The notes beneath the pieces are model-generated. The model was given only the letters and a program-made list of their open reading frames with translations. It was not told the origin of the DNA and ran no database searches. From Ruegeria lacuscaerulensis (GTDB lineage Bacteria; Pseudomonadota; Alphaproteobacteria; Rhodobacterales; Rhodobacteraceae), in contig NZ_WPZL01000003.1 in the NCBI RefSeq assembly GCF_013031245.1, forward strand, positions 124,001 through 188,000: a stretch of 64,000 bases of DNA, in the 5' to 3' direction. Position 1 is the stretch's first letter. The number at the start of each line of letters is the position of its first letter. Positions 33,455 to 50,698 of this stretch are shown piece after piece. A program made the position numbers and the translations under genes.

Positions 33455-33487
33455 AATGGTGGGTGATAAGAGATTTGAACTCCTGAC
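33455..33487 (-). repeat. attachment site copy B: 33-bp exact repeat of the tRNA-Val 3' end
   Basis: These 33 bp are identical to 50666-50698, the 3' end of the intact tRNA-Val gene plus two flanking bases. Sequences outside the 33 bp differ on both sides. It is the left boundary (attL/attR) of the 17.2-kb element. Confidence 0.93.
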
Positions 33488-33536
33488 TAATTGTTAAATA
33501 TCAATAACTTACGTGTGATTTTGTAACCGTGTAACC

Positions 33537-33552
33537 GGCCCTAAAATGGGCC
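33537..33552. repeat. Stem-loop GGCCC-N6-GGGCC, copy 1
   Basis: A 16-bp inverted repeat downstream of the PIN-like gene. A near-identical one with the same ACCGG-type left flank lies at 34914-34929, downstream of the membrane protein gene. Each may end transcription of the gene to its right, though no U tract is seen. Confidence 0.5.
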
Positions 33553-33565
33553 TATTGACTTCGCG

Positions 33566-34774
33566 TCAATCCATCCACTTCTTGGACTCCTGATACGATC
33601 TGGAAGTTTCTCGCAAAACAATATTGCATTCGTGCAGCACTTCTTCTGTCGATTTCAGTTCTTTTAGAGCCTGCCGTTCCTTTTCGTCATCACCCAACAA
33701 CCTGTGAACTTCTATCGATTGTTTAATGAAGTCGACTTTCTCTCGTAAGTGATTTCGTTGGTTGACCAGTTCACTAATTTTGGCCCGGCTTTCAAACTGC
33801 TCTCTGTGTAGGGCGGCTGAGGCTCTCCGTCTTTCATAAATTTGGTCGGCTGCTGTATCCAAATAGTCAGAGAACTTTACTTTCGCCGCCTTAGAAACTT
33901 GTTTTTCGTGGTCAGCTTTCACTTCCTTAAGGGTTTCCTCGCTGACAGCGGAACCAAGATTTTCCTTTGCCAATTGGACAAACCTATCAGGCGAGTAGAT
34001 CAGAATTGACTGCCCTGTTTCATTGCAAAACTCGCTGATCAACTCTGGGCGCGGAGCAATTGTTTTTCCTGACTGGACTTGCCACCAATCCTCTTTGGAG
34101 TCATCCGTCACAAAGATAACGTCAATGTTGCTGTTCTTCGCCTCGGAGATTGTTTGAAGCCATACAATCAAGTCACCGTATATCCGACGCCAGTCAGCGT
34201 GGGTTTTCGGGTCTTTTACTTTTGCTTTATCTTTGTATCCCGGAGGAATGCTCTCTTTGTAGCGCTTTTCTCCCTTATCAAAGATGTCCTTGTAGTCGTC
34301 TTCAGAATATGGGTTTCCGACGCGCCCATCAAAAATGTCCGCTAATGAGCTTTTAATGTCGTCTTTGGTGATCCTCGTCTCCTGTGAACTTAGGCTTTTT
34401 TCCAGTTCTTTGGAGATTTTCTTCAATACAGCGGTCAGCTCGCTGTGGTTGCCGTCCGAAATAAAAGGGTGACGATTGGAGCCTGAGAACGTTTTTTCAA
34501 TCTTCGATAGTTCCGCTGCGGTGTTCCTGTAAGCCTGTTCTTGTTCGCTGATCACGCCCAAGCGGTTCGAGAAGTATTCAAAGGCGCTTTGCTCAGGAAG
34601 CCACAGCCTATCCTTCAACTCACTAATGATGCGAACAAACTCTTTTCGTGTCTTATCCGAATAGCGATACAGGTTGAGCAGGACATTCGCGTCAAACACA
34701 AAGGTTGCCGACTGCCAAAGCTCGTCAATGGTTTCCTGAGTTTCGCTAAAATGGCCCGGGAATTTTGAACGCAT
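33566..34774 (-). CDS. PIN-like domain protein, probable defence or RNase cargo
   Basis: A 402-residue protein of the PIN-like (PIN_8) type. The first acidic residue lies in TFVFDANVLLNLYRYS, which is the PIN strand-1 motif. Further acidic residues are in VIFVTDDSKEDWWQVQSG (the second cluster), and HADWRRIYGDLIVWLQTI lies between. The middle is lysine-rich with predicted helices (YKDKAKVKDPKTH). The C-terminal 120 residues look like a long coiled coil (SELVNQRNHLREKVDFIKQS). Metal-dependent RNA cleavage is expected from the fold. Similar proteins occur as single genes in mobile elements and some are linked to phage defence. It is the last gene before the left boundary and has no antitoxin-like neighbour. 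Confidence 0.75.
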   Translation of the reverse strand: MRSKFPGHFSETQETIDELWQSATFVFDANVLLNLYRYSDKTRKEFVRIISELKDRLWLPEQSAFEYFSNRLGVISEQEQAYRNTAAELSKIEKTFSGSNRHPFISDGNHSELTAVLKKISKELEKSLSSQETRITKDDIKSSLADIFDGRVGNPYSEDDYKDIFDKGEKRYKESIPPGYKDKAKVKDPKTHADWRRIYGDLIVWLQTISEAKNSNIDVIFVTDDSKEDWWQVQSGKTIAPRPELISEFCNETGQSILIYSPDRFVQLAKENLGSAVSEETLKEVKADHEKQVSKAAKVKFSDYLDTAADQIYERRRASAALHREQFESRAKISELVNQRNHLREKVDFIKQSIEVHRLLGDDEKERQALKELKSTEEVLHECNIVLRETSRSYQESKKWMD

Positions 34775-34840
34775 GAACTGCCCCTAGAATCTTTTGAGGG
34801 ACTGTGATCTGGCGAGAGGGAATGTGCAACCCAATGAAGA

Positions 34841-34863
34841 AACCCGCCAGCTTGCACCGGCGG
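34841..34863 (-). terminator. Stem-loop terminator after the membrane protein gene (copy 1 of a repeat)
   Basis: The 23-bp core is also found at 35961-35983. On the minus strand CCGCCGGTGCAAGCTGGCGG is followed by GUUUCUU. It lies between the membrane protein gene and the PIN-like gene, so each has its own unit. Confidence 0.7.
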
Positions 34864-34913
34864 CTGGATTGTTTATGGGGCGGCGTTAGGGATAGTTACA
34901 GCGGTCGCAAACC

Positions 34914-34974: not shown

Positions 34975-35859
34975 TCACATCGGCTTCTGAAATGCCGTCA
35001 TCATCACCAATGTAGATGTTGTAAGTGTCGGAACTAGAAGGGCGCCAAATCCAAGCAGGAAAAACAGACCCACCATCGCGCGAGCAAGGAATTTCGAAAA
35101 GCTGAGCGAGTAGAATTCAACAAAGAAGACTTCTTTGGATCTTCCTTCCGCTTCTGCGTGCATTAGATGTAGAAGCGCAAAGGTTGCGGCGTTACCAGCG
35201 GTCATTATTTCCATTATGTTGTCAGTTTGTAGATAACCTGAACCAGTATAAATGGTGTAGGGTGAGCCTTCGAAAAATGTGCCGGGTGTCTCATAGGAAA
35301 GCTCTAGGTCAGGCAATTTGCTCGGCGATATATCCCTCCAAAGATTGCCAATAAGATCGTGAAGATAACCTGATGCCTCACTTGGGAATGAAAGTGATTG
35401 GCCATAAAAAAAGGGGCTTCTTGCTTCACCTTCGTTGGCATTGAGAAACCTACTAACGGTTTCAGTTAGCTTATTCGCGATCAATGTCTGCGAAGCCACT
35501 CCCTGCATTTCAGTGATGTATCCTGAAACATCCGAGTGTTTTCTAAGCGCGTCGGGCGCAAGGATGACGAAGAGCAAATTTCCGAGGCCTAAGAACAGCA
35601 AGCCAAAATACAAAAATACAAGCCTTTGGCCGTGTAGTTCTGAGAACCAGTCATACGTATTTGGTATTCCACCCGGAAGCTCCTGTTGAAAGAAGTTAAT
35701 AAACGATGGATTGAAGACTACTAGGTAACCGACAAATGGAATTAGTATCGTCAATCGACCTATATTCGACCGACCTACTGCACCAAGTTTGTCCCATCTC
35801 ACAGAATTACTAAGCTTTTCGAGAAACACCCGGGTTGCAAGGCTAATTGAAAACCGCAA
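34975..35859 (-). CDS. Unknown membrane protein in the element's cargo end
   Basis: A 294-residue protein with a TM helix near residue 38 (LTILIPFVGYLVVFNPSF), a second near 82 (LVFLYFGLLFLGLGNLLFVI) and a third near the C-terminus (AMVGLFFLLGFGALLVPTLT). A soluble region of about 150 residues lies between the second and third. No family is recognised. Base use is AT-richer than in the phage genes. With the PIN-like gene it forms the variable far end of the element, where defence or fitness genes often sit; that role is a guess. Confidence 0.7.
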   Translation of the reverse strand: MRFSISLATRVFLEKLSNSVRWDKLGAVGRSNIGRLTILIPFVGYLVVFNPSFINFFQQELPGGIPNTYDWFSELHGQRLVFLYFGLLFLGLGNLLFVILAPDALRKHSDVSGYITEMQGVASQTLIANKLTETVSRFLNANEGEARSPFFYGQSLSFPSEASGYLHDLIGNLWRDISPSKLPDLELSYETPGTFFEGSPYTIYTGSGYLQTDNIMEIMTAGNAATFALLHLMHAEAEGRSKEVFFVEFYSLSFSKFLARAMVGLFFLLGFGALLVPTLTTSTLVMMTAFQKPM

Positions 35860-36010: not shown

Positions 36011-36352
36011 CTAGGCTGCGACGCCGCCGCGCACTTCTGCGATCAAGTCCTTGGCTGTTTCCCAAAGCGCTTCGCTAGGGCGCTTCACCTCTACCTGGAC
36101 AGCATCGGAAGAAACCAAATGCCGAGCCGTGATAGGGCCAACCAGTGTGTCATTGAAAATCTCAACCTGCGCAAACTTCGAGCGATCAAACTCGCCTTTA
36201 GGCAGGTCTTTAGAAGGCGTTTTCCAGTGGTCGTTCTTCGGGTTGCCGTGCATCTCATGCAAGAAGGCGTCGAATTCTCGCCGCCCCATGAGAAGTGTCA
36301 CAGTGTCAGTCAGAGTTGCTCCATTCGTTGAAGTCGCGTATTCTGATGCCAT
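36011..36352 (-). CDS. Unknown 113-residue protein of the element
   Basis: The start at 36352 (MASEYATSTNGATLTDTVTL) is set by AAAGGAGCC seven bases upstream; the frame extends to 36376 without reason. The protein is soluble, mixed alpha/beta by eye, with segments RREFDAFLHEMHGNPKNDHW, AQVEIFNDTLVGPITARHLV and EALWETAKDLIAEVRGGVAA. No family is recognised. It is followed by its own terminator and preceded by another small gene, so this may be an early or regulatory unit of the element. Confidence 0.65.
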   Translation of the reverse strand: MASEYATSTNGATLTDTVTLLMGRREFDAFLHEMHGNPKNDHWKTPSKDLPKGEFDRSKFAQVEIFNDTLVGPITARHLVSSDAVQVEVKRPSEALWETAKDLIAEVRGGVAA

Positions 36353-36482
36353 AAATGGCTCCTTTCTGGTGGTCATTGATATGAAAGTGGCGCGGCTCTG
36401 TTTGCCGACGGTTCCGCGTCACAACTCCCTTATAGCATAAAAATGATAGGAAGTTCGTAGGAAAATTAGGACCGTATCGGTC

Positions 36483-36689
36483 CTATGCCGCCTCCGCGAC
36501 CTGAGCATCATCCAGCACTGAAACAGGCCAGATGTTCCCGATCTCACCCAGAGCCGCGACAATTTCGGTCTCAGGGTCGGTGCCGCATTCTTCGAACGGC
36601 TCAGATACCAGCTTTTCCAGCTTGGCTTTCAGTGCGTGGTAGATGTGATCCGGCAGATAGACTTCTTGTGGATTAGTGGGGGTCTGCAC
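36483..36689 (-). CDS. Unknown 68-residue protein of the element (GTG start)
   Basis: The start is a GTG at 36687-36689 with AGAGGAA nine bases before it, giving a protein that begins VQTPTNPQEVYLPDHIYHAL. The frame is open further upstream, but that part has no ribosome site. A helix (IYHALKAKLEKLVSEPFEEC) is followed by an acidic C-terminus. A perfect palindrome lies about 100 bp upstream. No family is recognised. Confidence 0.6.
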   Translation of the reverse strand: MQTPTNPQEVYLPDHIYHALKAKLEKLVSEPFEECGTDPETEIVAALGEIGNIWPVSVLDDAQVAEAA

Positions 36690-36786
36690 GAAATTATTCC
36701 TCTTTAAGATGATTTGGTGTGTGCAGATTCGCATGAGCGGAATCTGGTGCGCAAGAGGAAAAATGGCGTAACCTATAGATTTTATT

Positions 36787-36806
36787 GTAAGTAAATTCTT
36801 ACTTAC
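36787..36806. promoter_or_regulatory. 20-bp palindrome, operator candidate
   Basis: GTAAGTAA-ATTC-TTACTTAC is a perfect inverted repeat in the 219-bp gap upstream of the 68-residue gene. Its size and symmetry fit a dimeric repressor site. No repressor gene is recognised in the element. Confidence 0.6.
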
Positions 36807-36908
36807 CGCTGAAGAAATGAACCCCGCGCCGGGTGACTTACATCGCATTGATGATCCTGCGCGGGGTTCGGAGAGGGCATAGTTGGAAGCCAGCCCCTGC
36901 ATGTGATA

Positions 36909-37749: not shown

Positions 37750-40110
37750 TCAGCGCGCACCTTGCCGCCGGTTGTTCGCCATGTTCCCCGGTCTTCCTTG
37801 TCTACGCATTTCGTCTACCACAACCCCTCTCATGGACGCTTCAAGTTGCGCCGACATGCGCTCAGCCAGATCGGCGTTTTGCTGCGGAGTGCCAGCGGAC
37901 CCATTGACGGTGATCGGCGAGTTGATTGTGACGTTCGGTGCGGCAGCAGCGCCCACAGACTCAGAGCGCGCCGCTGAGACCGCCTGAACGGGTGCCCGGC
38001 CACCCACATACCCGCCAGACGCATACCCCCGCTTAGCGGAGCTGTGCAGCGCCTCTAGGTTTCTGACGCCAATGCGGTTGGTGGCCTCTTTGGACATGAC
38101 GTATTCGCCGCGGTGAACGACACCAGCCGGTTGAAGCTTGGGGCCATCTCCGGTGTAGCCACCTTCGGCGAAGCCGCCCAACAAAGTCGCGAAGCTGTTC
38201 ATCCAGCCTTGACCGCCACCTGCCAAACCACCAAGCATCTGAAGAATGAACTTCTGCGCGGCGTAGCGGGCTAGGTCTTTCATCAGGTTCGCCATAGCTT
38301 CCCTGAAAGTCATGGTGCCTCTGATGAGACCATCAAAGGCATTCGCTGCTGAATTTTCGATGTGCATTCTGGCCTCATCGATTTTCTGCAGCCCCCGTGC
38401 GGCCAATTCTGATTTTTTAGCGCTATCGGCATATGCCTGAGCAAGTTTTGAGATTTCGCTGCGAAGCTCCGGAGTAACTGTCCTGCCGGACATTTGCGCC
38501 TGATGCAGCATTTCGGCTTCACGGCGCGCCGTCGCAATTGCAGCAGTGTATTCACCCCCGGCAGCGGCACTTGCGACAAACGCAGCGGCTTCAAGTTCCA
38601 AAAGTGTGATCTCTGAGCGCAATGCAGTTGTCGCACGTGCGAAGTCGTCACCCCTGCCAGCGCCACCGCGCCCAGTGTCTACGTTCTCATGCAGCATCGG
38701 CGGAGCGACCCGGGGGCGGGGCGATGATGTCGGGGCCAGATCAGATGCAGGCTGATTGCCTTCGAACTGGCGGCGTTCAACTTCGGCCTGACCGTCACCA
38801 CGACCAGAGGATGTATAACCGCCGTTGTCCGGCAGCTGGGTTTTCAGAAGAGCGGCTTTGCCAATCGCTTTGTCCAGCGAATCGCCGATTCCACCAATGG
38901 CGGAAATCACATTTGCGAAACGGGCACCGTCGATCTCTGCCAGCTCCGTGGCTACTTCGCGTGCCTCTCCGACCAGTTCACCGATTTCCTTTTCAAATTC
39001 GCTGGCTTCGATCTGGCCGCCTTCAAGGGCATCGACCAGCCGTTTCAGGTCGCCCATGATATCAGCCAGGGCGAACCGGGCATCAGTGTTGTCGATCTCG
39101 AACACACGCACGCCGTCCGGGCCGGTCATACGGTTGATCAGGTTGAACAGCTCATCATACGTCCCGTGTAGGTCGCGCAGATCATCAGCATGGGCAGTAA
39201 GGGCTGCTTTGTTGCCTTCCAGCCCCTTAGCCAGTTCTTCGCCCAGCACAGCCTCAGCGCGTTCGATATCGCCGAAAATGCCTTCAAGGTTCTTCTTGGC
39301 GCTGAGAATGCCAGAAACACCTTCAGACATTGCTACGGCCAGCCGCTTGCCGAATGCACCCATCCGGGTTGTCATCTCGTCGAACTTGCGGGTGACTTCA
39401 TCTGCCGATGCAACAACGTCATCATCCAGCACCGCGCCCAGCTCGTGGGCTTTGGCGATTGTGTTTCTCAGCTCAGCGTCACTTTGAGCCATCAGCGCAA
39501 CAAACCGTTCGCCGCCCGTGCCGCCGAAAATCTCATCGGCGACACGAATACGACCTGCGCGATCCAGACGCCGCGACCGCTGTAGAATTTCAAGCATCAG
39601 CTCAGAAGGTTTTTCCAACCGTTTGCTGAGTTGTTCGGCACTGAAGCCAAGGCGCTCGAACATTTCGGCACCGCCACCCTTGCCGGTTTCAATGAATTCA
39701 TCAGCCCGGATGTTCAGTTCTTTGAAAGAGTCGATCATCGCATCCACTTCGATGCGGTTTTGCTGCGCGATGAAACGCCACTCCTGATGCTCTTTGAGCG
39801 ACAACCCAGCGCGTTCGGCTTCGTCGCCAAGCTCGGCAATGCCTCTGGTGGTGTCAGAGATAGCCCTGAGCGTCGAAGTGGAGGCGACACCGGCGGCCAG
39901 CGGAACGGCCATGCGCGCGAAACTGGCAGCTACGTTCCGGCCCATCTTGGCATAAGTGGCGTCGATACGTTTGGCCGATTGTTGCGCGCGACGTTCCATC
40001 TGTTGTGCGCCGCGGCGTTGTGCACGGTTTGCACGCTGCAGACCCTTTTCAAGTTTGTCGATCCGGGCTTCGATAGGGACTATTAGGCCGGGCAGTGTTG
40101 CGTCGTTCAT
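37750..40110 (-). CDS. Phage tail tape measure protein (lambda gpH type)
   Basis: A 786-residue protein that would set tail length and be ejected with DNA. The N-terminal helical region (NRAQRRGAQQMERRAQQSAK) is followed by long coiled-coil segments. The C-terminal domain has the usual glycine-rich FAEGGYTGDGPKLQPAGVVH and RGEYVMSKEATNRIGVRNLE. The segment AFDGLIRGTMTFREAMANLM-like near residue 610 is typical of lambda-family tape measures. The start overlaps the TerL stop by 4 nt. It is intact, although no tail tube or baseplate gene is visible, which is unusual. Confidence 0.9.
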   Translation of the reverse strand: MNDATLPGLIVPIEARIDKLEKGLQRANRAQRRGAQQMERRAQQSAKRIDATYAKMGRNVAASFARMAVPLAAGVASTSTLRAISDTTRGIAELGDEAERAGLSLKEHQEWRFIAQQNRIEVDAMIDSFKELNIRADEFIETGKGGGAEMFERLGFSAEQLSKRLEKPSELMLEILQRSRRLDRAGRIRVADEIFGGTGGERFVALMAQSDAELRNTIAKAHELGAVLDDDVVASADEVTRKFDEMTTRMGAFGKRLAVAMSEGVSGILSAKKNLEGIFGDIERAEAVLGEELAKGLEGNKAALTAHADDLRDLHGTYDELFNLINRMTGPDGVRVFEIDNTDARFALADIMGDLKRLVDALEGGQIEASEFEKEIGELVGEAREVATELAEIDGARFANVISAIGGIGDSLDKAIGKAALLKTQLPDNGGYTSSGRGDGQAEVERRQFEGNQPASDLAPTSSPRPRVAPPMLHENVDTGRGGAGRGDDFARATTALRSEITLLELEAAAFVASAAAGGEYTAAIATARREAEMLHQAQMSGRTVTPELRSEISKLAQAYADSAKKSELAARGLQKIDEARMHIENSAANAFDGLIRGTMTFREAMANLMKDLARYAAQKFILQMLGGLAGGGQGWMNSFATLLGGFAEGGYTGDGPKLQPAGVVHRGEYVMSKEATNRIGVRNLEALHSSAKRGYASGGYVGGRAPVQAVSAARSESVGAAAAPNVTINSPITVNGSAGTPQQNADLAERMSAQLEASMRGVVVDEMRRQGRPGNMANNRRQGAR

Positions 40111-41747
40111 GCTGCTTCCTCAAGGATATCCGCCAACGTTTTGTAGTTGGGGTCGTTGTATTTCGATTGATTGGACTCTGCGGCGACTGCCCGTGACACG
40201 GCCATAACAGCGGCAAAGGCACCGTCTATGTGGTCGTGTCTCGGATCGGCCTTGAACATTGTGATTTTGCCGGTGTCGCCTGTCACCGCAGCGACGTTGG
40301 CAAAGTGATTGCGGAGCACCGGATTGCCGTCATGGCGGATATTGCGACCGTTCACAGTGCGGACGAATTCGCCGGTGGCCGGTGCCATAGTCGCCGGGCC
40401 TTGGCGCATCTCGATCATAGGCAGGCCCTTGTCGTGCAACTCCATTGCAGCCACACGGAACTTCCACGGATCGTAAGCGACTTCTTCGACTGAATAGTCT
40501 GCGCACAGTTTCTCAATCAGGTCTTGAACATCTTTTTGCGGAATAACCGGACCGTCACTGGCGGTGATAAACCCATCGTCAATCCAGCGCTGATACGGCA
40601 AGCCTTCCAACTTTTCGCGCTCTTGAAGCCCTTCGCCAGCCACGAAAAACCACGGCTTAATAGCTATCCGCTTGTCCGGGAATCGCCACGCTGCAACCAC
40701 GGCGGCAAGGTCGCCAGACTGCGCGTAGTCAACGCCAAGGTAGCAGGGAAGTTGCAACAAATCAGTTTCATCAGTCGGGAAACAGCATTCGTCATAGGTG
40801 TCGAAGTCAAACAATGGTTCTCGGCTGTTGGCGTGCCAGACATTCAGGCGGTATTGCTGAAACTCGAAACGCTTGGATGAGTTTTCTTGCGCTTCCTGCG
40901 CATCAGACCGAACACCTTTGAGATCACAAAACCCGTCTTTCAAGCCGGGATTGAGCTTGTGCCAGACTTTCTCATCTAACCAGTCGTCACCCTCTTCAGG
41001 TTCAAAGATGATTGGCAGAAACGCAGGGTTGTCGATTTCGCCAAGCGCCACCTTGCGCGCATATTCATAGCGCTCAGCCGCAAGACCTTCGCGGCCACGG
41101 CCTGCGGTCGTGGCAACTACCGTCAACCCGCCAACGCGCTTTGTCATACCGCTCTTGAGCGCTTCCCACATTTCGCGGCCCGCCTTGTTTCGCCAAACGT
41201 GGATTTCATCAGCCAGGACAAATGTCGGCGTGGTGCCATGCACATTTTTGCCTTCGCTAGAAACAGCTCTAAGCCGGGAACTATCCGGTTTAGATTTAAT
41301 GGATTGAGGCGCGTTGCTCGGTTCGTAGATTCTGGCGGCACGGTTTAAGCTCTTTTGGTGACGCACCAGCTCAGCGGCTTCTTCAAAGCCGGTCGCGGCC
41401 TGCGTTCGATCCGCCGCAGCAAAGATGATCTGGCCGCCCGGCAGCTTCTGCGGCCCTAGCAAGTGAAGGATAGAAAGCGCCGCCGCTAGTGACGTTTTCC
41501 GGTTGCCGCGCGGGATCATCAGAAACACCTCACGCACCAGCCGTTCGCCGTCTTCGTCAACCGGGCCATAGATGCGCCGCACAATCCGTTCCTGCCATTC
41601 AGCCCATTTGATTTTCTGCTTAGGCTCAAGGCTCTTTGGGTGCCGCAGACCACGCAGAAAACGAACGGCGCGTTCCCCATGTCCAAGAGGGTCCGGGATC
41701 TCGCTGCCGTCGAACAGCCAATGCGGATATGTGCTTTTCTTTGGCAT
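40107..41747 (-). CDS. Terminase large subunit
   Basis: The DNA packaging motor and nuclease, 546 residues. Walker A-type region MIPRGNRKTSLAAALSILHL and Walker B FVLADEIHVW define the ATPase; the C-terminal nuclease domain begins LGVDYAQSGDLAAVVAAWRF with its first catalytic Asp, and a later acidic part lies in DPRHDHIDGAFAAVMA. It belongs to the HK97/lambdoid terminase group. It is coupled to TerS upstream (1-base gap) and to the tape measure gene downstream. Confidence 0.93.
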   Translation of the reverse strand: MPKKSTYPHWLFDGSEIPDPLGHGERAVRFLRGLRHPKSLEPKQKIKWAEWQERIVRRIYGPVDEDGERLVREVFLMIPRGNRKTSLAAALSILHLLGPQKLPGGQIIFAAADRTQAATGFEEAAELVRHQKSLNRAARIYEPSNAPQSIKSKPDSSRLRAVSSEGKNVHGTTPTFVLADEIHVWRNKAGREMWEALKSGMTKRVGGLTVVATTAGRGREGLAAERYEYARKVALGEIDNPAFLPIIFEPEEGDDWLDEKVWHKLNPGLKDGFCDLKGVRSDAQEAQENSSKRFEFQQYRLNVWHANSREPLFDFDTYDECCFPTDETDLLQLPCYLGVDYAQSGDLAAVVAAWRFPDKRIAIKPWFFVAGEGLQEREKLEGLPYQRWIDDGFITASDGPVIPQKDVQDLIEKLCADYSVEEVAYDPWKFRVAAMELHDKGLPMIEMRQGPATMAPATGEFVRTVNGRNIRHDGNPVLRNHFANVAAVTGDTGKITMFKADPRHDHIDGAFAAVMAVSRAVAAESNQSKYNDPNYKTLADILEEAA

Positions 41748-42452: not shown

Positions 42453-42454
42453 GG

Positions 42455-43302: not shown

Positions 43303-43588
43303 AGCCAGTCACCGGATTCTTGTAAGGGGAAAGCAGTTCACGGACGCCAAAGGGCACCGGGGCCGTGGTCATACCGAATGACGCGGCCTCACGTTGCTCA
43401 TACCAATAGGCTGCAAGCTGCAAAGCGGCTTCGGTCAGGGGTGCATCACCGGCAACAAAGGGCGTCCCGGTGTAGTGGCCGATCCATGTTTCGGCGGCGT
43501 CCAGCTTATGCGCCAGCAGGGCATCATCAAGGTCATGATCAAGGTTGAGCTGCGATTTCAGCAACGCAACAGGTGTCAGTGCGGCCAT
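43289..43588 (-). CDS. Head-tail connector (gp6-like)
   Basis: A 99-residue helical adaptor that docks on the portal. It matches the phage gp6-like group (LLKSQLNLDHDLDDALLAHK, LDAAETWIGHYTGTPF, LTEAALQLAAYWYEQREAAS, GVRELLSPYK). It is the first gene after the opposite-strand insert and probably has to be transcribed through that region. Confidence 0.9.
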   Translation of the reverse strand: MAALTPVALLKSQLNLDHDLDDALLAHKLDAAETWIGHYTGTPFVAGDAPLTEAALQLAAYWYEQREAASFGMTTAPVPFGVRELLSPYKNPVTGYVQE

Positions 43589-43732
43589 CAGCTCGCCTCT
43601 CTTTCTGAAAAAGTTATTTTCGGTGTGTCTTGTGCGGAGGTCCCCACGCCGGTCCCCTCAGAGGCCCTAAAGTTCGAGACCACCCCCGTTAGGACTCTTT
43701 TGGTGTCGACCGGTCCAACGAACCTTCGTCTT

Positions 43733-43761
43733 TTGCTTGGAGGCTGATTGTGGCTTGATAA
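43733..43761 (+). promoter_or_regulatory. Sigma-70 promoter of the opposite-strand gene
   Basis: TTGCTT, a 17-bp spacer and TGATAA lie 30 bp before the gene start at 43792. This allows independent expression from within the structural gene cluster. Confidence 0.6.
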
Positions 43762-43791
43762 GTTATGGAAGAGTGTCGCTGGGAGAACTTT

Positions 43792-44358
43792 ATGCGCGGA
43801 GTAAAAGATCAAGAAGAAATCGACCAACTTAAGGCAGAACGCGCTTTGATTGGAACTTACATTGACCACGCTTATGACCTTGAGAAAGTTAAGTGGCTGT
43901 TGGATGCGTGCCCTGCTTTTGATGCCCATGTCAAAGATGCCTGGCACCTTATTCTCCCGTTCAAAGGTCGAGGGTTTGCCGTCGACGTTTCGATGAATCC
44001 GGAAGACTACGACATAGAGAAAGCTCGCGCCGAGATTGATAGACTCAAGGTTGCGCATGGGGAACTTCCCTGCATCGTGTTCGACGCGGTTAACGACCAC
44101 AAATACTTCTTGAAACTTGGTGGAATGAAGAAAGATGAAGTCATAAAAGTCATCGGCGAGATAGGTGACATTGCTGTTAAATGTTGGAATGATGACCAAT
44201 TGGACCGGTCGATTTTCAAGAACGAAGTCAACCGCAAGGTTATGCGTTACCTTAGAAGAAGACGCCTTCTCAGCGTGGCAAAAAAATCTCTGCCGATCGT
44301 AGGTCCGCTTCTTGGTGGCGTTGTAGATATTAAGGAGCTGGCGAAGGAACTGGTGTAA
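43792..44358 (+). CDS. Unknown moron-like gene on the opposite strand within the capsid cluster
   Basis: A 188-residue protein, the only plus-strand gene in the element. The start at 43792 has GGGAGA six bases upstream; an ATG at 43765 is possible. The N-terminal half is helical (DQEEIDQLKAERALIGTYID), the middle has an alpha/beta look (AWHLILPFKGRGFAVDVSMN, LPCIVFDAVNDHKYFLKLGG). The C-terminus is basic then hydrophobic (RKVMRYLRRRRLLSVAKKSL, IVGPLLGGVVDIKELAKEL), which might touch the membrane. No family is recognised. Its own promoter, AT-rich base use and reverse direction fit a phage moron, which commonly act in defence, exclusion or host fitness. Confidence 0.7.
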   Translation: MRGVKDQEEIDQLKAERALIGTYIDHAYDLEKVKWLLDACPAFDAHVKDAWHLILPFKGRGFAVDVSMNPEDYDIEKARAEIDRLKVAHGELPCIVFDAVNDHKYFLKLGGMKKDEVIKVIGEIGDIAVKCWNDDQLDRSIFKNEVNRKVMRYLRRRRLLSVAKKSLPIVGPLLGGVVDIKELAKELV

Positions 44359-44366
44359 ATTCATAA

Positions 44367-44705
44367 CTAGCTTTCCTGCCGTTGCTTGTGGCGACTGTGA
44401 CAGGATATGCAGAGCGGTTGCCAGTTTGAGCGATCCCAGAACAGGCGCATGTCGCCACGATGAGCGATGATGTGATCTACAAGCGTGGCCTTTGCCCTAC
44501 AGCCGGGCCATGCGCAGCGATCATTGATCCTTAGGAAGGTGTCACGAGCTGCGCGCCACTTGCTGCCGTAGCCTCTTGCCGACGCAGACGGGCGGCGCGC
44601 GTCATGGCGTTTGTTTCGGGCACGGGCGCGCGCAACCTGACAGGCGCAGCGCTCACCATGCGGAACGATGCTGCCACATGTGCAGATATGAGGCGGACGG
44701 GGCAT
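44367..44705 (-). CDS. HNH endonuclease
   Basis: A 112-residue HNH nuclease. Two zinc-binding cysteine pairs (CAWPGC and CISC) frame the catalytic core LVDHIIAHRGDMRLFWDRSN, and an early cysteine group (CTCGSIVPHGERCAC) may bind another zinc. HNH proteins next to terminases often help DNA packaging cleavage; here it is separated from TerL by several genes, so a homing or packaging role is open. Confidence 0.9.
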   Translation of the reverse strand: MPRPPHICTCGSIVPHGERCACQVARARARNKRHDARRPSASARGYGSKWRAARDTFLRINDRCAWPGCRAKATLVDHIIAHRGDMRLFWDRSNWQPLCISCHSRHKQRQES

Positions 44706-44709: not shown

Positions 44710-45000
44710 TTACCAAAGCAACGTGAACGTTACGTCTTCCGGTATGAGGTTGCTGCCAGTGACGTGAATGCGTGTCGGGCGTATCCGGTGGATGACACCG
44801 GGCAGCAGCCGCAAGGTGACGGTGATCCCGTTTTGTAGGGTCATGAGGATAGGCAGCGGGGTTGCCCAATGGCTGTTCAAGACAAGCGCACCGGGCATAA
44901 CAGGCAGGTCAGCGTTATCATCTGCCTGCACTTCTACGGCGTTCTCATAGGGTCCGTCAGGGGATTGGCCGTAACCGCTATAGGGGTCAACAATAGGCAT
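44710..45000 (-). CDS. Spike-base-like protein (Rcc01079-like family)
   Basis: A 96-residue small beta protein resembling the spike base family found in Rhodobacterales gene transfer agents and phages. It has the acidic start VQADDNADLPVMPGALVLNS and the ending ILMTLQNGITVTLRLLPGVI followed by a conserved VTGSNLIPEDVTFTLLW. It would belong to a capsid or tail spike. The assignment is from memory of the family pattern. It overlaps the tail chaperone gene by one base. Confidence 0.65.
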   Translation of the reverse strand: MPIVDPYSGYGQSPDGPYENAVEVQADDNADLPVMPGALVLNSHWATPLPILMTLQNGITVTLRLLPGVIHRIRPTRIHVTGSNLIPEDVTFTLLW

Positions 45001-45623
45001 TAGATCATTTGTCCTTCTCGTATTGTGCTGAGCGCGCGCAGGTTTGCCAGCCCGGCGCGGTCAAACTCAGGATCAAAGCCGTTCTGAACATTCTCTTGGC
45101 GTTGTTCCTCGGTAGGGCCTTGCTGTTCATCGGTTGCGCCGTGGATAGCCATGAGCTTGCTCATATGGGCTTCAAAGGCGTCTGTGATTTCTTGGGGCGT
45201 GGCATTCCAAGCGGTCTCGGGCGGCCAGCCCATCCAGCCGGTTGCGTAGCCATAGAGCTGCTTAAACAGATCGGCCCAAGGTAAGGGATCGGTGCTGGTC
45301 GATTTGGTTTCGCTATCGTCTGCACTGGTCGGGAACAGAGCCGTGATAAACTCAAAAAGAGCTGCGATAGCCGCGTTGGCGAACCCGGACAGGGGTTGCG
45401 TTGCGACATACCCAAACAGAGCATCAGTAGCCGTTCTTCCAGCCCCAGCGGTGATAATGTGCCAGACAGTGAACGTGTCGAATTCTTCCAGCTTGCGTAG
45501 CAGTTCGGGAAAGCCGCCGTGCAGCCGTTCAAGGCGCATAGCAGCCCGCAAAGACGGGCGCAGGAATACGGTGTGATCACCGTATCCCAATGCGATTGCG
45601 TCATATGCGAGCTGCGGTTTCAT
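45000..45623 (-). CDS. Phage tail assembly chaperone-like protein (TAC_6-like)
   Basis: A 207-residue protein. The segment GWPPETAWNATPQEITDAFE matches the short tail assembly chaperone of Rhodobacterales phages and gene transfer agents (a WMTPxE-like motif). The N-terminal 110 residues (FLRPSLRAAMRLERLHGGFP) resemble a longer chaperone (gpG-like) part, so this may be a fused or frameshift-free version of a normally two-part chaperone. It follows the capsid gene by 8 bp. Confidence 0.65.
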   Translation of the reverse strand: MKPQLAYDAIALGYGDHTVFLRPSLRAAMRLERLHGGFPELLRKLEEFDTFTVWHIITAGAGRTATDALFGYVATQPLSGFANAAIAALFEFITALFPTSADDSETKSTSTDPLPWADLFKQLYGYATGWMGWPPETAWNATPQEITDAFEAHMSKLMAIHGATDEQQGPTEEQRQENVQNGFDPEFDRAGLANLRALSTIREGQMI

Positions 45624-45631
45624 AGATTGGG

Positions 45632-47179
45632 TTAGGCCGCCATTTTCAGCTTACGGAACGCAGCAGGCAGAACCACACCAGCACCAGTCCGGCGGCGCGC
45701 ATGGTAGCGAACCAGACCGTTGATACGCTGCGTGTAGGGGTCACTCAGCACGGCCAGCGCCAGACGGTCATAGATGCGATAGCCGCGTTTGAAGTCACCA
45801 AAGATGATCGGCTCTGCATCAGCGCCAATATCCGGCATGTCCACGGCCTCAATAACCGGGCGGCCAAGGATCGTTTCGGGCTGGCCTGCCTGATAGGACG
45901 GTTGCCACAGATAGTTGCCATGACCGTCTTTCAGCGTGCGAATGACTGCCAGCGTCTGGGCATTCATCACCCACGAACCGTTGTTCCGGTAGGTGGCCGG
46001 CAGAGCATACATCAGGGCAATCAGCTCATCAGGGTCTATAGCTGTCTGAGCGGTTGCTGTGGTGTTGCCGATGGTTGCATCAGCCATGAACCCGGCAGGT
46101 TCAAGAGCGGTGCTGCCGTTGACGTAGGCGAGATTTTCTTTCTGGGCGAAGTCTTCGGCCAGAGCCAGATTGACCTCGCTCAGAACGTTGTCACTGTCTT
46201 CGGCGAGCTGCAGCGAGATATCAACGTAGGTTGCGATTTCGTTGATTGCGATCTTGGATTGATCAAAGGCGGGCTGGCTGCCGGTCCGGGTGGTGGTCTC
46301 ATCAACCCAGACGGCATTCGTGATGCCGGTGCGTTTCGGTAGGATGACGCTACCGCGTGCGGTGGTGCGCACGTCAGCGATGGAACGGACAGGGCTGAAT
46401 TCGACCAGATTGCGGATGAACTCAGACTGCACGTCTTCCGGTGCCAGAATGTGGTCGGACGTGTCGCTGGCGGTGGTCAGGGATTTCTTTTCGCCAGTGG
46501 ACAAGTAAGCAGCGAAAGCTTTGACTTCTTCGCCGCCCATGACGGGGTTTGCCGGGCCGGTGATCTGGGGCCGGTTGCCTTTGGCTTCCAGTTTGTCCAG
46601 GCGGGCGATGACTTTGTCGAATGCCTTGATGTCGATCTGGGGCACCTGCGGTGTATCGTTGGCCGGGGTCACGGCCTTCTGCTCGGTCTCGATTTCTTCG
46701 TTTTTCAATTTGGGGGTCTCCATAGAGGGGGTCAGGGGGTCATCCGATTTGATGGACGTGATCTGTGCGCCCGGATGACACGGGACGGCGACAACAGAGA
46801 TTTCGTGCAGGTGGGCAGCGGTGATGGTGCGGCCCTTGGCGTGGCGTTTGTGCTGTTTGGTGACAAAGCCGATGGACAGGCCGGAAATGGCCTTGCTGCG
46901 GATCATGGCGCGCACTTCACGGGCACGCTCAACGTCATCCACCAACAGGCGGCCTTTGACGGTCAGGCCTTCGTCGGTTTCGGTGATCCGATCCCAAACG
47001 CCGATGACTTGCCCTTGATCGTGAGCAAACAGCATCGGCAGATTTTCAGGGGATGTGATCGCTCCCTTTTCGATCACATCCCCAACCCGGTCAGCAGAGC
47101 CGAAGGGCCAAGCAATGCCGGTGATTTCGCCTGCGTCGGTGACTTCGAATGCGGCTTTGATCTCAATACGGTCGGTCAT
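45632..47179 (-). CDS. Prohead protease-major capsid protein fusion (HK97 fold)
   Basis: A 515-residue protein joining two normally separate products. Residues 1-165 are an HK97-type prohead protease (IAWPFGSADRVGDVIEKGAI, MLFAHDQGQVIGVWD with the catalytic His, ISGLSIGFVT with the Ser). A Lys/Glu-rich linker or scaffold (about 170-205) follows, then the HK97 major capsid domain (YVDISLQLAEDSDN, PATYRNNGSWVMNAQTLAVI, IIFGDFKRGYRIYDR). Cleavage by the protease part would free the capsid protein. The start overlaps the upstream membrane gene by 4 nt. Such fusions are known in some phages. Confidence 0.92.
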   Translation of the reverse strand: MTDRIEIKAAFEVTDAGEITGIAWPFGSADRVGDVIEKGAITSPENLPMLFAHDQGQVIGVWDRITETDEGLTVKGRLLVDDVERAREVRAMIRSKAISGLSIGFVTKQHKRHAKGRTITAAHLHEISVVAVPCHPGAQITSIKSDDPLTPSMETPKLKNEEIETEQKAVTPANDTPQVPQIDIKAFDKVIARLDKLEAKGNRPQITGPANPVMGGEEVKAFAAYLSTGEKKSLTTASDTSDHILAPEDVQSEFIRNLVEFSPVRSIADVRTTARGSVILPKRTGITNAVWVDETTTRTGSQPAFDQSKIAINEIATYVDISLQLAEDSDNVLSEVNLALAEDFAQKENLAYVNGSTALEPAGFMADATIGNTTATAQTAIDPDELIALMYALPATYRNNGSWVMNAQTLAVIRTLKDGHGNYLWQPSYQAGQPETILGRPVIEAVDMPDIGADAEPIIFGDFKRGYRIYDRLALAVLSDPYTQRINGLVRYHARRRTGAGVVLPAAFRKLKMAA

Positions 47180-47388
47180 TCGGCGGCCTCACTCGGAGCC
47201 GCTGAAGGGTCGCTATCCAATGGCCAGACAAGTCCTGTCATACCCGCAAGAAAGCCGCTGATGCTCAAAAAGGTATCGGGGCTATACCAAGATATGCCTG
47301 CCACGATTGACGCATTGGCTAAAATGAGGGTGAGCGTTGTGGCGAGCATGAAAATTTTCGCCATACGAAATGAACGTAGTTTAGGCAT
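47176..47388 (-). CDS. Small two-TM membrane protein of the element
   Basis: A 70-residue protein with TM helices at about 10-31 (FMLATTLTLILANASIVAGI) and 41-57 (FLSISGFLAGMTGLVWP) and a short acidic tail. The ATG at 47388 overlaps the end of the tail chaperone gene, and its stop overlaps the capsid fusion start by 4 nt, so it is a real gene in the operon. Size and topology would fit a holin or a superinfection-exclusion protein, but there is no endolysin gene nearby. Confidence 0.65.
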   Translation of the reverse strand: MPKLRSFRMAKIFMLATTLTLILANASIVAGISWYSPDTFLSISGFLAGMTGLVWPLDSDPSAAPSEAAE

Positions 47389-47749
47389 GAGCGACCTCAC
47401 TCAGAGCTGCCGAAAGGTCGCCTGTTTGGGCTGCATCGATGGTGTCAGGTTTACCGCCCCAGCGCGCATCCAGAACGTCCAGCGCCAGCGGATACAGATC
47501 ATCAATCGGAGTGTTCCGGGCGTAGGTGTCTGTAAGTTGTGCCGCGCGTTCCGGTTTGGTGCCGCCACCGATCAGGCCAAGCCGGATGATCTCAATCAGA
47601 TCAGCCAGTTTGAACTGCATGTTCACGGCGCGCATGTAGAACGCGCCAATGCCAAGATCGGCGATGCGCTCAAGCTCAGTGATCATGTCATCGGTCAGGG
47701 CGAATGTGTATTCGCCATCGCCGAAAAAGGCGGTGTGGGTCAGGTTCAT
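47381..47749 (-). CDS. Tail assembly chaperone of the GTA-gp10 type (TAC_11-like)
   Basis: A 122-residue protein. FFGDGEYTFALTDDMITELE followed by an ELERIADLGIGAFYMR segment matches the GTA-gp10/Phage_TAC_11 group. In normal phages this gene sits near the tape measure; here it follows the portal, overlapping it by 4 nt. That position is unusual. Confidence 0.75.
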   Translation of the reverse strand: MNLTHTAFFGDGEYTFALTDDMITELERIADLGIGAFYMRAVNMQFKLADLIEIIRLGLIGGGTKPERAAQLTDTYARNTPIDDLYPLALDVLDARWGGKPDTIDAAQTGDLSAALSEVAHA

Positions 47750-48924
47750 TCAACCTGTTCCTTCTGGGTTGTGGTGTAGGGATTACTCAGCTCATCGCCG
47801 CCTTCACGGGGCGGCAGATTGAGGCCAGCGCGAACGTCATTCGCAGATAGAACACCCATGCTGCGATACTGACCGTATGCGGTTGCACGGGCTGCCGTGT
47901 CGGTGGTCAGCAGATCGTCAGTGACGGCTTCAAAGTAGAAGTCATCCTGTTCTTCAGGCGTCAGTAGGCATTGCGCGTATGCATCCGTCCAATCTTTCAG
48001 CCACGGCTTGAGCGTGACGGTGTGAAATTGGCGGAACATCTCTTCAGTGTTTGACCATGTGCCGCGCGATAGCTCGAACAACATGGTGGGCGGCACCCGG
48101 AAGACACGGGCGATTTCGTTGATTTGCTCAAGGCGGTTTTCGGCAAACTGAGCATCGGCAAGGGTCATGGAAATGGCCTTGTATTCCATGCCCTCATCAA
48201 GGACTGCCGGTGAGCCGTTTCGACTGCCGGAGTGTTGGGCCGCCCAGTCCTTAATAAAATTCAGTTTGCCGACCGCATCCATATCGCTCTGGATTTGGAT
48301 CACGCCGGAGGGCCGCGCACCATTCTTGAGGGAGGTTGCCATGTGATTCTCAAAGCTGATTGCCAGCGCGATAGCTTCACGGCCAAGAGTGATCGGTGCC
48401 ACTCCGCCGACAGCCTCAATGCGCAGCACATCCCGGTAGGAAAGCCGCACTTGCCCGGTATCGGTGGAAACGCGAAAGAACGGTTCGCCGTCCGGCTCCT
48501 GATCCCGTTGGACTTTGCCCGGTTCCAGCCGGAGCAGCTCATACGGTGTGTCATCAGAAAGGCGAACCACCTGAGCATGACCGGCACCATGCAGCAGTGC
48601 GTCGATGGTCAGTTGTTCGCGTAGCTTGGCGGCGCTGGTCCACGGGTTCACGCGGCCATGCACCAGCCGATAGGCCGGGTGATCTGTCAGGGTGTCTTTG
48701 GATGCGCGGTCATACAGCTTGACCGGCAGCGCGCCGATGGTCTCTGAGATGAGCGACACGGCGCAGTTGACCGCAGGAACACGCATGGCGTTGCTGGGGC
48801 CGACTGACACGCCGGTTGCGGTCGGCAACACCCCGAACAGTGTCAGGGCGTCCGGGTCGGTCAGGGTCAGCGCCTTTTCCTCAACGCCGAATCCGAGTGC
48901 TTTTTTGATCTTGGTAAGGGCCAT
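47746..48924 (-). CDS. Phage portal protein (HK97 family)
   Basis: A 392-residue portal that forms the DNA gate at one capsid vertex. Typical parts: MRVPAVNCAVSLISETIGAL, YRLVHGRVNPWTSAAKLREQ, LSYRDVLRIEAVG, and the C-terminal IARVFRVPPTMLFELSRGTW. The start at 48924 gives MALTKIKKALGFG; a longer frame to 48963 is open but has no better ribosome site. It is the first structural gene after the integrase. Confidence 0.92.
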   Translation of the reverse strand: MALTKIKKALGFGVEEKALTLTDPDALTLFGVLPTATGVSVGPSNAMRVPAVNCAVSLISETIGALPVKLYDRASKDTLTDHPAYRLVHGRVNPWTSAAKLREQLTIDALLHGAGHAQVVRLSDDTPYELLRLEPGKVQRDQEPDGEPFFRVSTDTGQVRLSYRDVLRIEAVGGVAPITLGREAIALAISFENHMATSLKNGARPSGVIQIQSDMDAVGKLNFIKDWAAQHSGSRNGSPAVLDEGMEYKAISMTLADAQFAENRLEQINEIARVFRVPPTMLFELSRGTWSNTEEMFRQFHTVTLKPWLKDWTDAYAQCLLTPEEQDDFYFEAVTDDLLTTDTAARATAYGQYRSMGVLSANDVRAGLNLPPREGGDELSNPYTTTQKEQVE

Positions 48925-49012
48925 GCGATCCACGTGAGAATAGTAGTGTGGCAAAAATACCACACTGTGAATCGCGATAAAAGGTAAATGTTATGTAATA
49001 ACAAACTAAGTG

Positions 49013-50578
49013 TCAGCTTAGGTCGTATAAGGGCAGTTTGTTGATTGCGTCGATCTTAGCTTTAAGGCTCACATCGCCGTAATTGTCGGAGGCGTCGTTA
49101 CTGGAATGGCCCTGAATGGCGTCATAGACGCGCTTCAAGATGCCAAGTTCAATGCACTGGCTCTTGAAACGGTGTCGCCAAGCATGGGTAGGGCGCACGT
49201 CGTCTGGAACAAGCTCCATTTCTTGCAGCCAACTGGCTAGCCGGTTTGATATTTGCGTGGCGGCTGCGAGGTATTTCTCAGGATCAGTGCCGTGGTGGAA
49301 TAGGGGGCCAGACTCTGAGCTTTGGGCGAACTCAATGAACCCTTCATCAATGATCTGGGGATGCAGCGGCACGTCGCGGTATTCACCTGTTTTGATTGTT
49401 CCGGCGTCCGGCGTAAGTCTGGCAACCCATGTGCCGCCTTCCTTACGGATGTCCTCTTTCCGTAGCTGGGTGATTTCGGTGACACGTGTGCCGGTGAAGG
49501 CACCAATGATCGGCACCCAGCGCTTGGCCGCGATCATGTGTTTGGTTTCCCGGATGCGGCCTTGCTCGTCTTGTGTCGGGGCATAGGAACGAGACGCCTT
49601 GAGGATTTTCACGGCCTCTGTGTCGGTGAACCCTTTCTCTCGGGATTGAACTTGCTTCGGCTTCGGTTGTTTCACTTGCGCGGCTACGTTGTCGCTGAGC
49701 CTATCATTCTCCACAGCCCAATTCAGCAGCGAGCGCACGGTTGAGAGATACTTATCGCTCACCGTGCGCGGCGAGAGGGATTTCAACAGTTGGTCACGCC
49801 ACGCGATGATGTCCTTCTTTGTCAGCCGGGCGGCGTCATCGTGGCGAACGAACTTCTTTAGGGTTTCAACAGCCAAGCCGAGTTGCTTGCCACCGTCACG
49901 CATGGACCCTGTTTGCTGGCGCATTTTCACATAGTCGGTCCAGAGCTGTTTGAGGCTCACAGGCTCAGGTGCTTTTTCCGGAGGCTGTGCGTTCACAATG
50001 ATCGGGGCAGTGGGTGTGCCGGTGAAGTCGCCTTCATCGCGCTCAGCAGAGCGCGCAAGGGCTTCCAGCTCTGCGTGACACAAGGCACGGGCTATCTCGC
50101 GCCATTCTATGCTACCGCGTGCAGCATCTAGATTGCCAGCAGCCCGGAAGCGTTCGATCTGTGCGCCGACCAGTTCGCCCAGCTCTGCGTCATTGGCATT
50201 CCCGGCTATGGCTGCACGCAGGCGTTCTACCAGCAGGTCATCAATACCAACAGCAGAGTAGCGTGGATCATTTCTGAGTTGGTCATCAAAGGCCATGCGC
50301 TGGTAGTAGTGGCTGTGTGCGATCTGGCCGGGTGCCAGCGGGTAGCGGGCAGGGGTGTTCGGTGCCTGATTTGGGTTCGCCTTTTGCTCTGCAACCGCGA
50401 TCTGGTGTTGAAGCTCAGCGACCGCGCCGGGGAGTAACTTGAGCGCCTGACGGTAATCGCCTCCTAGCGGGGTGCGCAGCTCTGTCTTACCGACGATTCC
50501 CCGTAGGTCTTTTGGCACCACTAGCCGGGCATGATACCGCCCGGAACGGGTGACGAAGTGACGAACTTTGCCTGCCAT
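49013..50578 (-). CDS. int: Tyrosine integrase of the 17-kb element
   Basis: A 521-residue site-specific recombinase. The N-terminal part (KVRHFVTRSGRYHARLVVPK) is the DUF6538-type region of alphaproteobacterial integrases. A core-binding domain follows at about 225-310. The catalytic domain shows the first Arg in GAFTGTRVTEITQLR, His-x-x-Arg in THAWRHRFKS, the second His in IQGHSSNDAS, and the Tyr nucleophile in DNYGDVS. All catalytic residues are present, so the element may be mobile. The start at 50578 has AAAGGTG seven bases upstream. It lies 88 bp from the attachment site in the tRNA gene. Confidence 0.93.
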   Translation of the reverse strand: MAGKVRHFVTRSGRYHARLVVPKDLRGIVGKTELRTPLGGDYRQALKLLPGAVAELQHQIAVAEQKANPNQAPNTPARYPLAPGQIAHSHYYQRMAFDDQLRNDPRYSAVGIDDLLVERLRAAIAGNANDAELGELVGAQIERFRAAGNLDAARGSIEWREIARALCHAELEALARSAERDEGDFTGTPTAPIIVNAQPPEKAPEPVSLKQLWTDYVKMRQQTGSMRDGGKQLGLAVETLKKFVRHDDAARLTKKDIIAWRDQLLKSLSPRTVSDKYLSTVRSLLNWAVENDRLSDNVAAQVKQPKPKQVQSREKGFTDTEAVKILKASRSYAPTQDEQGRIRETKHMIAAKRWVPIIGAFTGTRVTEITQLRKEDIRKEGGTWVARLTPDAGTIKTGEYRDVPLHPQIIDEGFIEFAQSSESGPLFHHGTDPEKYLAAATQISNRLASWLQEMELVPDDVRPTHAWRHRFKSQCIELGILKRVYDAIQGHSSNDASDNYGDVSLKAKIDAINKLPLYDLS

Positions 50579-50665
50579 GGGAACACCTTTTGTAACCAAA
50601 GTTGTAACCTTCAAACGGACATATGCCCTTGTTTGCAAGGCTTTTCTTTTAATTCAAAAGGTTAG

Positions 50666-50698
50666 AATGGTGGGTGATAAGAGATTTGAACTCCTGAC
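50666..50698 (-). repeat. attachment site copy C, in the intact tRNA-Val gene
   Basis: These 33 bp, identical to 33455-33487, cover the tRNA 3' end from the variable loop to CCA plus two bases. Integration here leaves the tRNA gene whole. Confidence 0.93.

Follow-up and report, generated by a model that had tools for sequence, protein, structure and literature searches.

Borders and gene order of the element

We analysed a 64,000-nucleotide stretch of the Ruegeria lacuscaerulensis contig NZ_WPZL01000003.1 (the window; all positions are those of this stretch), which holds a 17.2-kb integrated element at 33455–50698. The element is bounded by exact 33-bp direct repeats, attL at 33455–33487 and attR at 50666–50698, which the initial annotation of this DNA had described and which we recovered. 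No third copy with up to three mismatches over the 33 bp is present in the window, and 100 shuffles gave 0 copies. At attR the repeat overlaps a tRNA-Val(cac) gene (50668–50742, minus strand) at its 3' end, and the integrase open reading frame (ORF) starts about 28 bp inward of this repeat.

The minus strand holds all recognised genes except one plus-strand cargo gene. The order begins with a 541-aa tyrosine integrase (49013–50638; phrog_1, 9.5e-34, with XerC-like matches far under the cut-off) and a 405-aa portal protein (47746–48963; PF04860, 1.1e-86), followed by a tail assembly chaperone (TAC), a 74-aa ORF, a 515-aa fusion of prohead protease and major capsid protein (45632–47179; PF05065, 6.1e-76; PF04586, 7.6e-21), a 207-aa chaperone-like protein, a 96-aa protein with a weak tail-fibre profile (44710–45000; phrog_12296, 3e-5) and an HNH endonuclease associated with packaging by its position (44367–44705; PF01844, phrog_589). 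It continues with the head-tail adaptor Ad1 (43289–43588; PF05135, 3e-12), the HK97 gp10-like neck protein Ne1 (42868–43302; PF04883, 1.6e-9), the gp17-like tail completion protein Tc (42455–42871; PF11367, 1e-12), the head closure protein Hc1 (42132–42467; PF05521, 1.4e-17), the small terminase TerS (41749–42153; PF05119, 2.6e-15), whose true start may lie further in, the 546-aa large terminase TerL (40107–41747; PF20441, PF03354 and phrog_9 at 1.1e-132) and a tape measure protein (TMP). Small genes come after the TMP, and then a 294-aa and a PIN_8 cargo gene.

The integrase, portal, protease-capsid, connectors, terminases and tape measure were earlier called intact, and all are indeed intact minus-strand frames with Pfam or PHROGs matches. 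The accompanying remark that the genes are mostly joined by 4-bp overlaps holds for four junctions (portal/TAC, 74-aa ORF/capsid, Ne1/Tc and TerL/TMP) but was generous for the others, which overlap by 1 to 22 bp or are separated by short gaps. Pfam and PHROGs were scanned with 20 window proteins, ORFs shorter than 60 aa and the 74-aa ORF being left out. Among these 20, no family of tail tube, tip or baseplate, lysis, primase or replication, or repressor was found, in agreement with the initial annotation.

Two side observations concern the borders. An att-like copy of 30 bp (97%) lies at 29654–29683, 3.8 kb left of attL, which points to a further segment with a GNAT/TPR gene in tandem beside the element. 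In addition, the left flank (32996–33454) resembles DNA beside a different tRNA-Val gene in several congeners, for example at 83% in genome G020.

Tape measure and chaperones

The TMP (37750–40110) has 786 residues and matches phrog_10574 at 2e-117. Its lambda-H-like C-terminus matches TIGR01541 at 2e-9, under that model's cut-off, and neither PF09718 nor PF06199 has a match anywhere in the window's genome. The first of two proteins that we assign to tail assembly, of 122 aa (47381–47749), belongs to the gene transfer agent (GTA)-gp10 family (PF11836, 1.4e-23; phrog_8985, 4.3e-24). PHROGs names this family 'tail tube', and Pfam names it Phage_TAC_11, described as a GTA-gp10 tail tube protein. 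We take the protein to be a chaperone rather than a tube, partly on the strength of the GTA literature.

The second protein, of 207 aa (45000–45623), has a predicted fold (mean pLDDT 87.9) made up of a strand hairpin and helices. Compared with viral predicted structures, the fold best resembled a protein of the Rhodobacter phage RcapNL (E = 7e-4) and then a tail assembly protein (E = 1.2e-3); among the solved structures of the PDB there was no match by sequence or by fold. Going by length, the RcapNL protein in question appears to be a 190-aa protein, which sits between the tube gene and the tape measure genes of that phage. The viral predicted structures and the position of the gene together suggest that the 207-aa protein is chaperone-like. 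A tail tube was sought in all six-frame ORFs of the element with two profiles, and none was found.

Relatives of the element

The TMP search yielded 371 homologues among 7,992 scored candidates; among the 120 matches listed, many are 780–830 aa long and the named ones are largely from Rhodobacterales. TMP scans of viral contigs and species genomes (best 80 loci each), together with a TMP search of relatives, gave 173 loci, of which 74 were classed as type A, 45 as type B, 7 as type C and 47 as other, short or unclassified. Type A has the gene order of the window, type B a related layout that lacks the 207-aa chaperone gene ahead of the adaptor, and type C consists of ordinary siphophages, two of the seven loci being one replicon. 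Because type B is defined by this missing gene, it includes a few truncated contigs (such as L002, L100, L118 and L122), and because the same replicon can occur in two collections (for example L001/L018, L107/L053), locus counts are not counts of independent elements.

The window gene order recurs in L001 and L003–L007, partly in the shorter L002, and in dozens of Rhodobacterales and Rhizobiales loci; type-A elements are also found in Rhizobium, Ensifer, Hoeflea and Nitratireductor. The initial annotation had proposed a look for the same block in other genomes; the layout is shared by members of two orders, with different tRNA genes serving as sites. Closer to the window, a TMP search of 101 genomes, the window's own among them, gave matches in nine. 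Four are near full length, and the three from other genomes (read in contig coordinates) are Ruegeria elements with the same reduced layout. Among 394 genomes sampled from the family, ten carried the 207-aa protein, a marker of type A.

Several individual loci deserve mention. A contig of a Roseovarius metagenome-assembled genome (NZ_JAUCYU010000007.1, our G103:C8) carries type-A and type-B elements together (L020 and L050). The contig of the type-B relative L107 measures 17,661 bp and has a terminal repeat of 95 bp, giving a 17,566-bp circle; L053 of Limimaricola hongkongensis is identical to it and crosses the join, with 14,875 of 19,042 bases seen. Metagenome contig L154 encodes a ParA-like protein (8897–9523) alongside satellite genes, suggesting plasmid-like members.

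Element length and selection

Flanking DNA allowed att analysis of 37 loci; L035 and L065 gave no repeat, leaving 35 elements. In L021 and L057, shorter repeats (17 and 15 bp) overlapping a tRNA were preferred over longer ones. The repeat overlaps or touches a tRNA gene in 34 of the 35 elements (Val, Thr, Met, Leu, Gln, Pro, Ser or Arg), and none was found in L023. Element length is 17,665 ± 569 bp (range 16,471–19,239, n = 35), a standard deviation (SD) smaller than that of the part up to the end of the TMP gene (918) or of the remainder (972); the two parts are correlated at −0.82 (n = 35). When the downstream parts were permuted, the mean SD was 1,332 and the minimum 704, so that 0 of 100,000 permutations reached the observed value. 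The result was the same with one element per genus (n = 22; 0 of 20,000 permutations) and once the six elements with repeats no longer than 17 bp, L021 and L057 among them, had been set aside (29 left). Such length compensation is the pattern expected where the total must fit a capsid, as in a packaged genome.

The core genes in the Ruegeria relatives are under purifying selection. Over 14 genes and six pairs (the window element, R. halocynthiae, R. arenilitoris and R. haliotis), the ratio of nonsynonymous to synonymous divergence (dN/dS) was 0.02–0.50, and for the TMP it was 0.095–0.171 across the six pairs; some dS values exceed 1 and are approximate. The suggestion that the intact frames reflect selection, for which a dN/dS comparison had been proposed, is borne out by these values.

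These data bear directly on whether the element is a reduced prophage, that is, a siphophage which has lost its tail, lysis and replication genes and whose remainder is drifting. Head and neck genes of an ordinary HK97 kind are in keeping with this explanation, and decay does occur in the family: L058 is a remnant with a capsid gene, a TMP gene and a piece of Ne1 among apparent host genes. (Its TMP is 82% identical to that of type-B L055 in the same Tropicimonas genome.) Against it, the same reduced set is shared by two orders and sits at tRNA genes of several kinds, the lengths compensate and the genes are under purifying selection. A full prophage at this site had been named as the finding that would mark the element as a deletion product; the TMP-only search of the genome and 100 relatives found none, and the three Ruegeria matches have the reduced layout. 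We therefore regard decay as very unlikely, and the recently reduced prophage entertained in the initial annotation is contradicted by recurrence, length constraint and selection, whereas its proposal of a satellite-like element agrees with all three.

Distribution of the tail tube

The tube separates the types. All seven type-C loci (six replicons) have a GTA-g9-like tube, one of them having seeded one of the two profiles. Among the 39 type-B loci spanning capsid to TMP, 37 have a tube by the L107 profile, which corresponds to phrog_158 on two type-B members, and one more has the other kind of tube. A tube was detected in only 7 of 71 type-A loci, and in this tube-bearing subset protease and capsid are encoded separately wherever this can be seen. 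Of the 35 att-bounded elements, two have a tube, both belonging to the split protease/capsid subset, and 33 have none by the two profiles. Canonical type A is thus a form that retains the TMP and chaperones without a recognised tube. The median length of the TMP is 794.5 aa in type A, 775 in type B and 774 in type C.

A possible explanation for the missing genes is that the element is a phage of very small size that is autonomous, its tube, tip and lysis proteins having diverged beyond recognition. Several conserved small proteins have no assigned function (u139 and u121 in the window, CL2 and CL4 in relatives), type-B relatives encode a tube, PHROGs gives the 122-aa family the name of one, and a gpM-like minor tail cluster follows the TMP in 5 of 35 elements (PF05939 on one representative). 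However, the unassigned genes are small and unevenly distributed among the elements, the roughly 4 kb after the TMP could hardly accommodate genes for a tip, receptor binding and a lysin, and 33 of 35 elements lack a tube by both profiles. On balance, we consider an autonomous phage unlikely.

A candidate cos site

Comparison of the DNA upstream of the adaptor gene revealed a conserved core, GGGGACCGGCGNGGGGA, at 43641–43657 (minus strand), between HNH and Ad1 and within a wider conserved block at about 43603–43687. At up to two mismatches the core matches once in the 64-kb window (0.07 expected). It is present at 15 or more of 17 positions in 31 of the 35 att-bounded type-A elements, in all 31 between HNH and adaptor, and in 32 of 43 type-B loci of at least 9 kb, 21 of which have it about 80 to 420 bp before the called portal start; none of the seven type-C phage loci has it, and 14 of 700 composition-shuffled elements reached 15 of the 17 positions or more. 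HNH endonuclease, terminase and cos site form a known linkage. With HNH, TerS and TerL nearby, the natural reading of this site is a candidate cos. A 258-aa ORF at 43588–44364 (minus strand) was rejected as a protein: it is conserved over its last 60 residues only, where the DNA site lies, and the rest is opposite the plus-strand cargo gene, so it is probably not a gene.

Cargo genes and regulators

The plus-strand gene (43765–44358) encodes a 197-aa cargo protein with homologues in the same slot of L096 and L241 and no Pfam or PADLOC match. Downstream of the TMP lie two small conserved proteins, u139 (36483–36902; about 60 aa of it conserved, its family occurring in 38 of 173 loci) and u121 (36011–36376; family in 13 of 173 loci), and then the two terminal genes. 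One encodes a 294-aa protein (34975–35859) with membrane-like segments by eye, a low GC content (0.45) and no Pfam match, and the other a PIN_8 domain protein (33566–34774; PF18476, 5.7e-64) with no PADLOC match. In relatives, 109 of the 167 downstream proteins of at least 100 aa, at most two per cluster, were scanned; they include the Pfam families Abi_alpha, Abi_C, AIPR, BglII, DpnI, MT-A70, TIR and FRG and PADLOC matches to AbiU and AbiJ. The PIN and 294-aa genes would seem to be cargo, placed where relatives carry phage-defence genes. The cluster of the 96-aa protein described above occurs in 5 of 35 elements.

No primase was found among the 20 window proteins or in the Pfam tally of these 109 downstream proteins, one of which has a weak Rep-family match (PF23343, 1.8e-4). 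Since AlpA proteins are small, the 35 element-bearing genomes were searched whole. PF05930 had no match inside any of the 35 elements (contig coordinates), and among the PF12728 matches listed (to about E = 4e-4) a single one falls within any of them, in L082 and not in the window element. Two excisionase/AlpA-like HTH_17 domains set their elements apart from the others, at G103:C8:206118-206258 beside the TMP of type-B L050 and at G132:C7:8743-8904 in L082, a tube-bearing type-A element.

Likeness to phages and the proposed tail of the element

Taken together, these results make it probable that we are dealing with an integrated phage satellite that forms its own capsid and completes a chimeric tail by combining its TMP and chaperones with the tube and tip of a helper. 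Infection by an RcapNL-like siphophage would lead the element to excise, and helper or host replication would presumably copy it. Its own 17-kb unit would be packaged into its own small head, while its TMP and chaperones would template a tail from helper tube subunits and tip. In the resulting chimeric particle, tail length and injection protein would be those of the satellite, and release would proceed via the lysis genes of the helper. A capsid of small T number and a tail of about 0.15 nm per TMP residue would be expected.

A comparison of six satellites with seven phage loci is consistent with this proposal. The TMP was the highest-scoring match to the type-C phages in 6 of 6 satellites. 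In four of the six, the satellite TMP shared 38–45% identity with the best phage over 680–711 aa; the best portal identity was 31–34% and that of TerL 24–31%, and the tail completion and 207-aa proteins had no match. Between satellites, TMPs were 32–61% and portals 43–72% identical. In a tree of the TMP N-domain, a single clade of all satellites was rejected (p = 0.0016). A first TMP tree of 69 rows had nine label changes; after L058 (the decayed satellite, counted as phage), L054 (unclear) and L155 and L049 (long branches) had been dropped, the 65-row tree had five, or two when the labels were satellite and phage. These patterns are suggestive of TMPs forming one shared pool, with the heads distinct. 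A TMP swap in L088 and L079, hinted at by the first tree, was not significant (p = 0.49) and is not claimed. In Oceanicola sp. 22II-s10i, a type-A element and a type-C prophage occur together.

Several points weigh against this interpretation. The helper, the induction, the excision and the particles are proposed from the genes, and no excision factor or inducer was recognised in the element. The type-C phages were found via their TMPs, so the TMP likeness is partly produced by selection and is suggestive only. The two remaining satellite TMPs are less convincing (30% over 724 aa, and 50% over the N-terminal 266 aa), and HNH identity between satellites and phages reaches 63% over 38 aa, equal to or above the TMP likeness. 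Phages compared with one another show the same tendency, with TMPs 37–51% and portals 24–41% identical and the TMP ahead of the portal in 10 of 10 pairs. The portal tree, which places the satellites apart from the phages, carries long-branch warnings for its seven phages. As to the candidate cos, the core was read from the same sequences in which it was counted, so that the counts describe it and do not test it, its fixed place being the independent part, and 4 of 35 att-bounded elements lack the core at up to two mismatches. Finally, the element holds the sole matches to the PF04860 portal and PF05065 capsid families in the window's genome; an HK97-type helper would therefore have to arrive by infection.

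The host's own gene transfer agent was considered in two ways, with the element either a GTA-like domesticated particle packaging host DNA or a satellite taking the tail of the host GTA. The 122-aa chaperone is in the GTA-gp10 family, and GTAs are common in the hosts' group (PMC8224337). The att sites, integrase, mobile distribution and candidate cos speak against such a reading, as does the absence of a second PF04860 portal or PF05065 capsid. Moreover, the host GTA cluster has apparently collapsed to one 835-aa ORF (G000:C19, locus L277, 16447–18954), in which a terminase N-terminal domain is fused to the tail hub, with GTA_TIM, Phage-tail_3 and Rcc01698_C domains, which makes the host GTA an unlikely source of tails in this strain. 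We judge a GTA-like particle or a tail taken from the host GTA to be most improbable.

It could also be that the TMP is not built into a tail, and instead hinders helper tail assembly or serves in injection only. Its presence in particles is deduced from genes, and a satellite protein that hinders helper tails, Rta, is known (PMC12987554). The company of chaperones and the phage-like length that the TMP retains argue against such a role, which seems to us improbable.

If the proposed satellite lifestyle is correct, the making of chimeric tails by satellites, demonstrated to date for PLE, would extend to a widespread capsid-making lineage of marine and soil Alphaproteobacteria. More tentatively, and with somewhat less than even confidence, we suggest a large alphaproteobacterial satellite family with graded outsourcing of the tail, in which the TMP would serve compatibility and injection as a module passed between satellites and helper phages. 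Tube, chaperone and TMP would be kept by type B and by part of type A, which would need only the helper tip, canonical type A would have dropped the tube and kept the TMP and two chaperones, and the head and the dedicated cos site would stay satellite-specific. Comparing types A and B may then indicate which parts of the tail a parasite of viruses can leave to its helper, and whether the tape measure is retained for length control, for a match with the chaperones or for DNA injection. Such a family would escape detectors that require AlpA or primase, and it has a slot for phage-defence cargo. A literature search by title and abstract start found no paper describing this alphaproteobacterial family; the list in the founding paper on capsid-forming phage-inducible chromosomal islands (cf-PICIs) was outside this comparison.

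Comparison with known systems

The element differs from gene transfer agents in having att sites and an integrase, and from a complete temperate phage in that tail tube, tip, lysis and replication genes are not recognised. RcapNL and the type-C prophages L051 and L103 share with it a homologous TMP, a similar chaperone fold, HNH, terminase and portal. RcapNL is, however, a 40.5-kb phage with tube, tip-region genes, regulator, integrase and a conventional gene order, and its annotated cohesive end is unlike the candidate cos.

Among satellites, the cf-PISP satellite-plasmids of Vibrio are capsid-forming and maintained as plasmids (PMC13230959), and L107 (a circle) and L154 (with ParA) may live similarly, whereas the window element is integrated at a tRNA gene and has a TMP and chaperones. 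MulchRoom, a 14.8-kb Streptomyces satellite, resembles it in having an integrase, its own capsid and packaging genes and HNH, and no primase, and its tail is thought to come from a helper. It differs in its direct terminal repeats, virulent helper and host phylum, and the account in PMC10690885 reports no tail genes for it.

Our comparison with cf-PICIs is one of gene content with published descriptions, not of sequences. These islands are integrated and encode their own capsid, protease, portal, connectors, TerS, TerL and HNH while using a helper tail (PMC10690885, PMC10803314), and the element likewise has its own capsid, protease, portal, connectors, TerS, TerL, HNH, integrase and chromosomal att sites. 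The initial annotation had considered a tape measure to be unlike such satellites, but tmp genes are reported for PLE and, as putative genes in a figure legend, for some cf-PICIs (PMC12987554). The differences are that no AlpA (PF05930 or PF12728 being the markers used for PICMI; PMC10803314) or primase was found in the window element, that the family averages 17.7 kb compared with 14 kb for cf-PICIs (PMC10803314), and that its alphaproteobacterial hosts fall outside the main-host list of PMC10803314, even though cf-PICIs are described as widely distributed across Bacteria (PMC10690885). TMP and chaperone genes also accompany the head genes throughout type A, a universality due in part to TMP-based selection. 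As for the Stl-like repressor of cf-PICIs, the 20 window proteins gave no match to a repressor family, some of the small ones being without an assignment. As neither AlpA nor primase was found, we do not file the element as a PICI, only as one working like a capsid-forming satellite.

PLE of Vibrio cholerae is not known to have a capsid gene of its own. PLE remodels the capsid of its helper (PMC10945586); it also has a contractile tail, encodes a hub protein and has another gene set (PMC12987554). What it offers is a precedent for the tail: the satellite's TMP and TAC were reported in 2026 to make a chimeric tail with the helper tube (PMC12987554). The window element likewise encodes TMP and TAC and no recognised tube, and PLE serves as our working model for how its particles may be completed.

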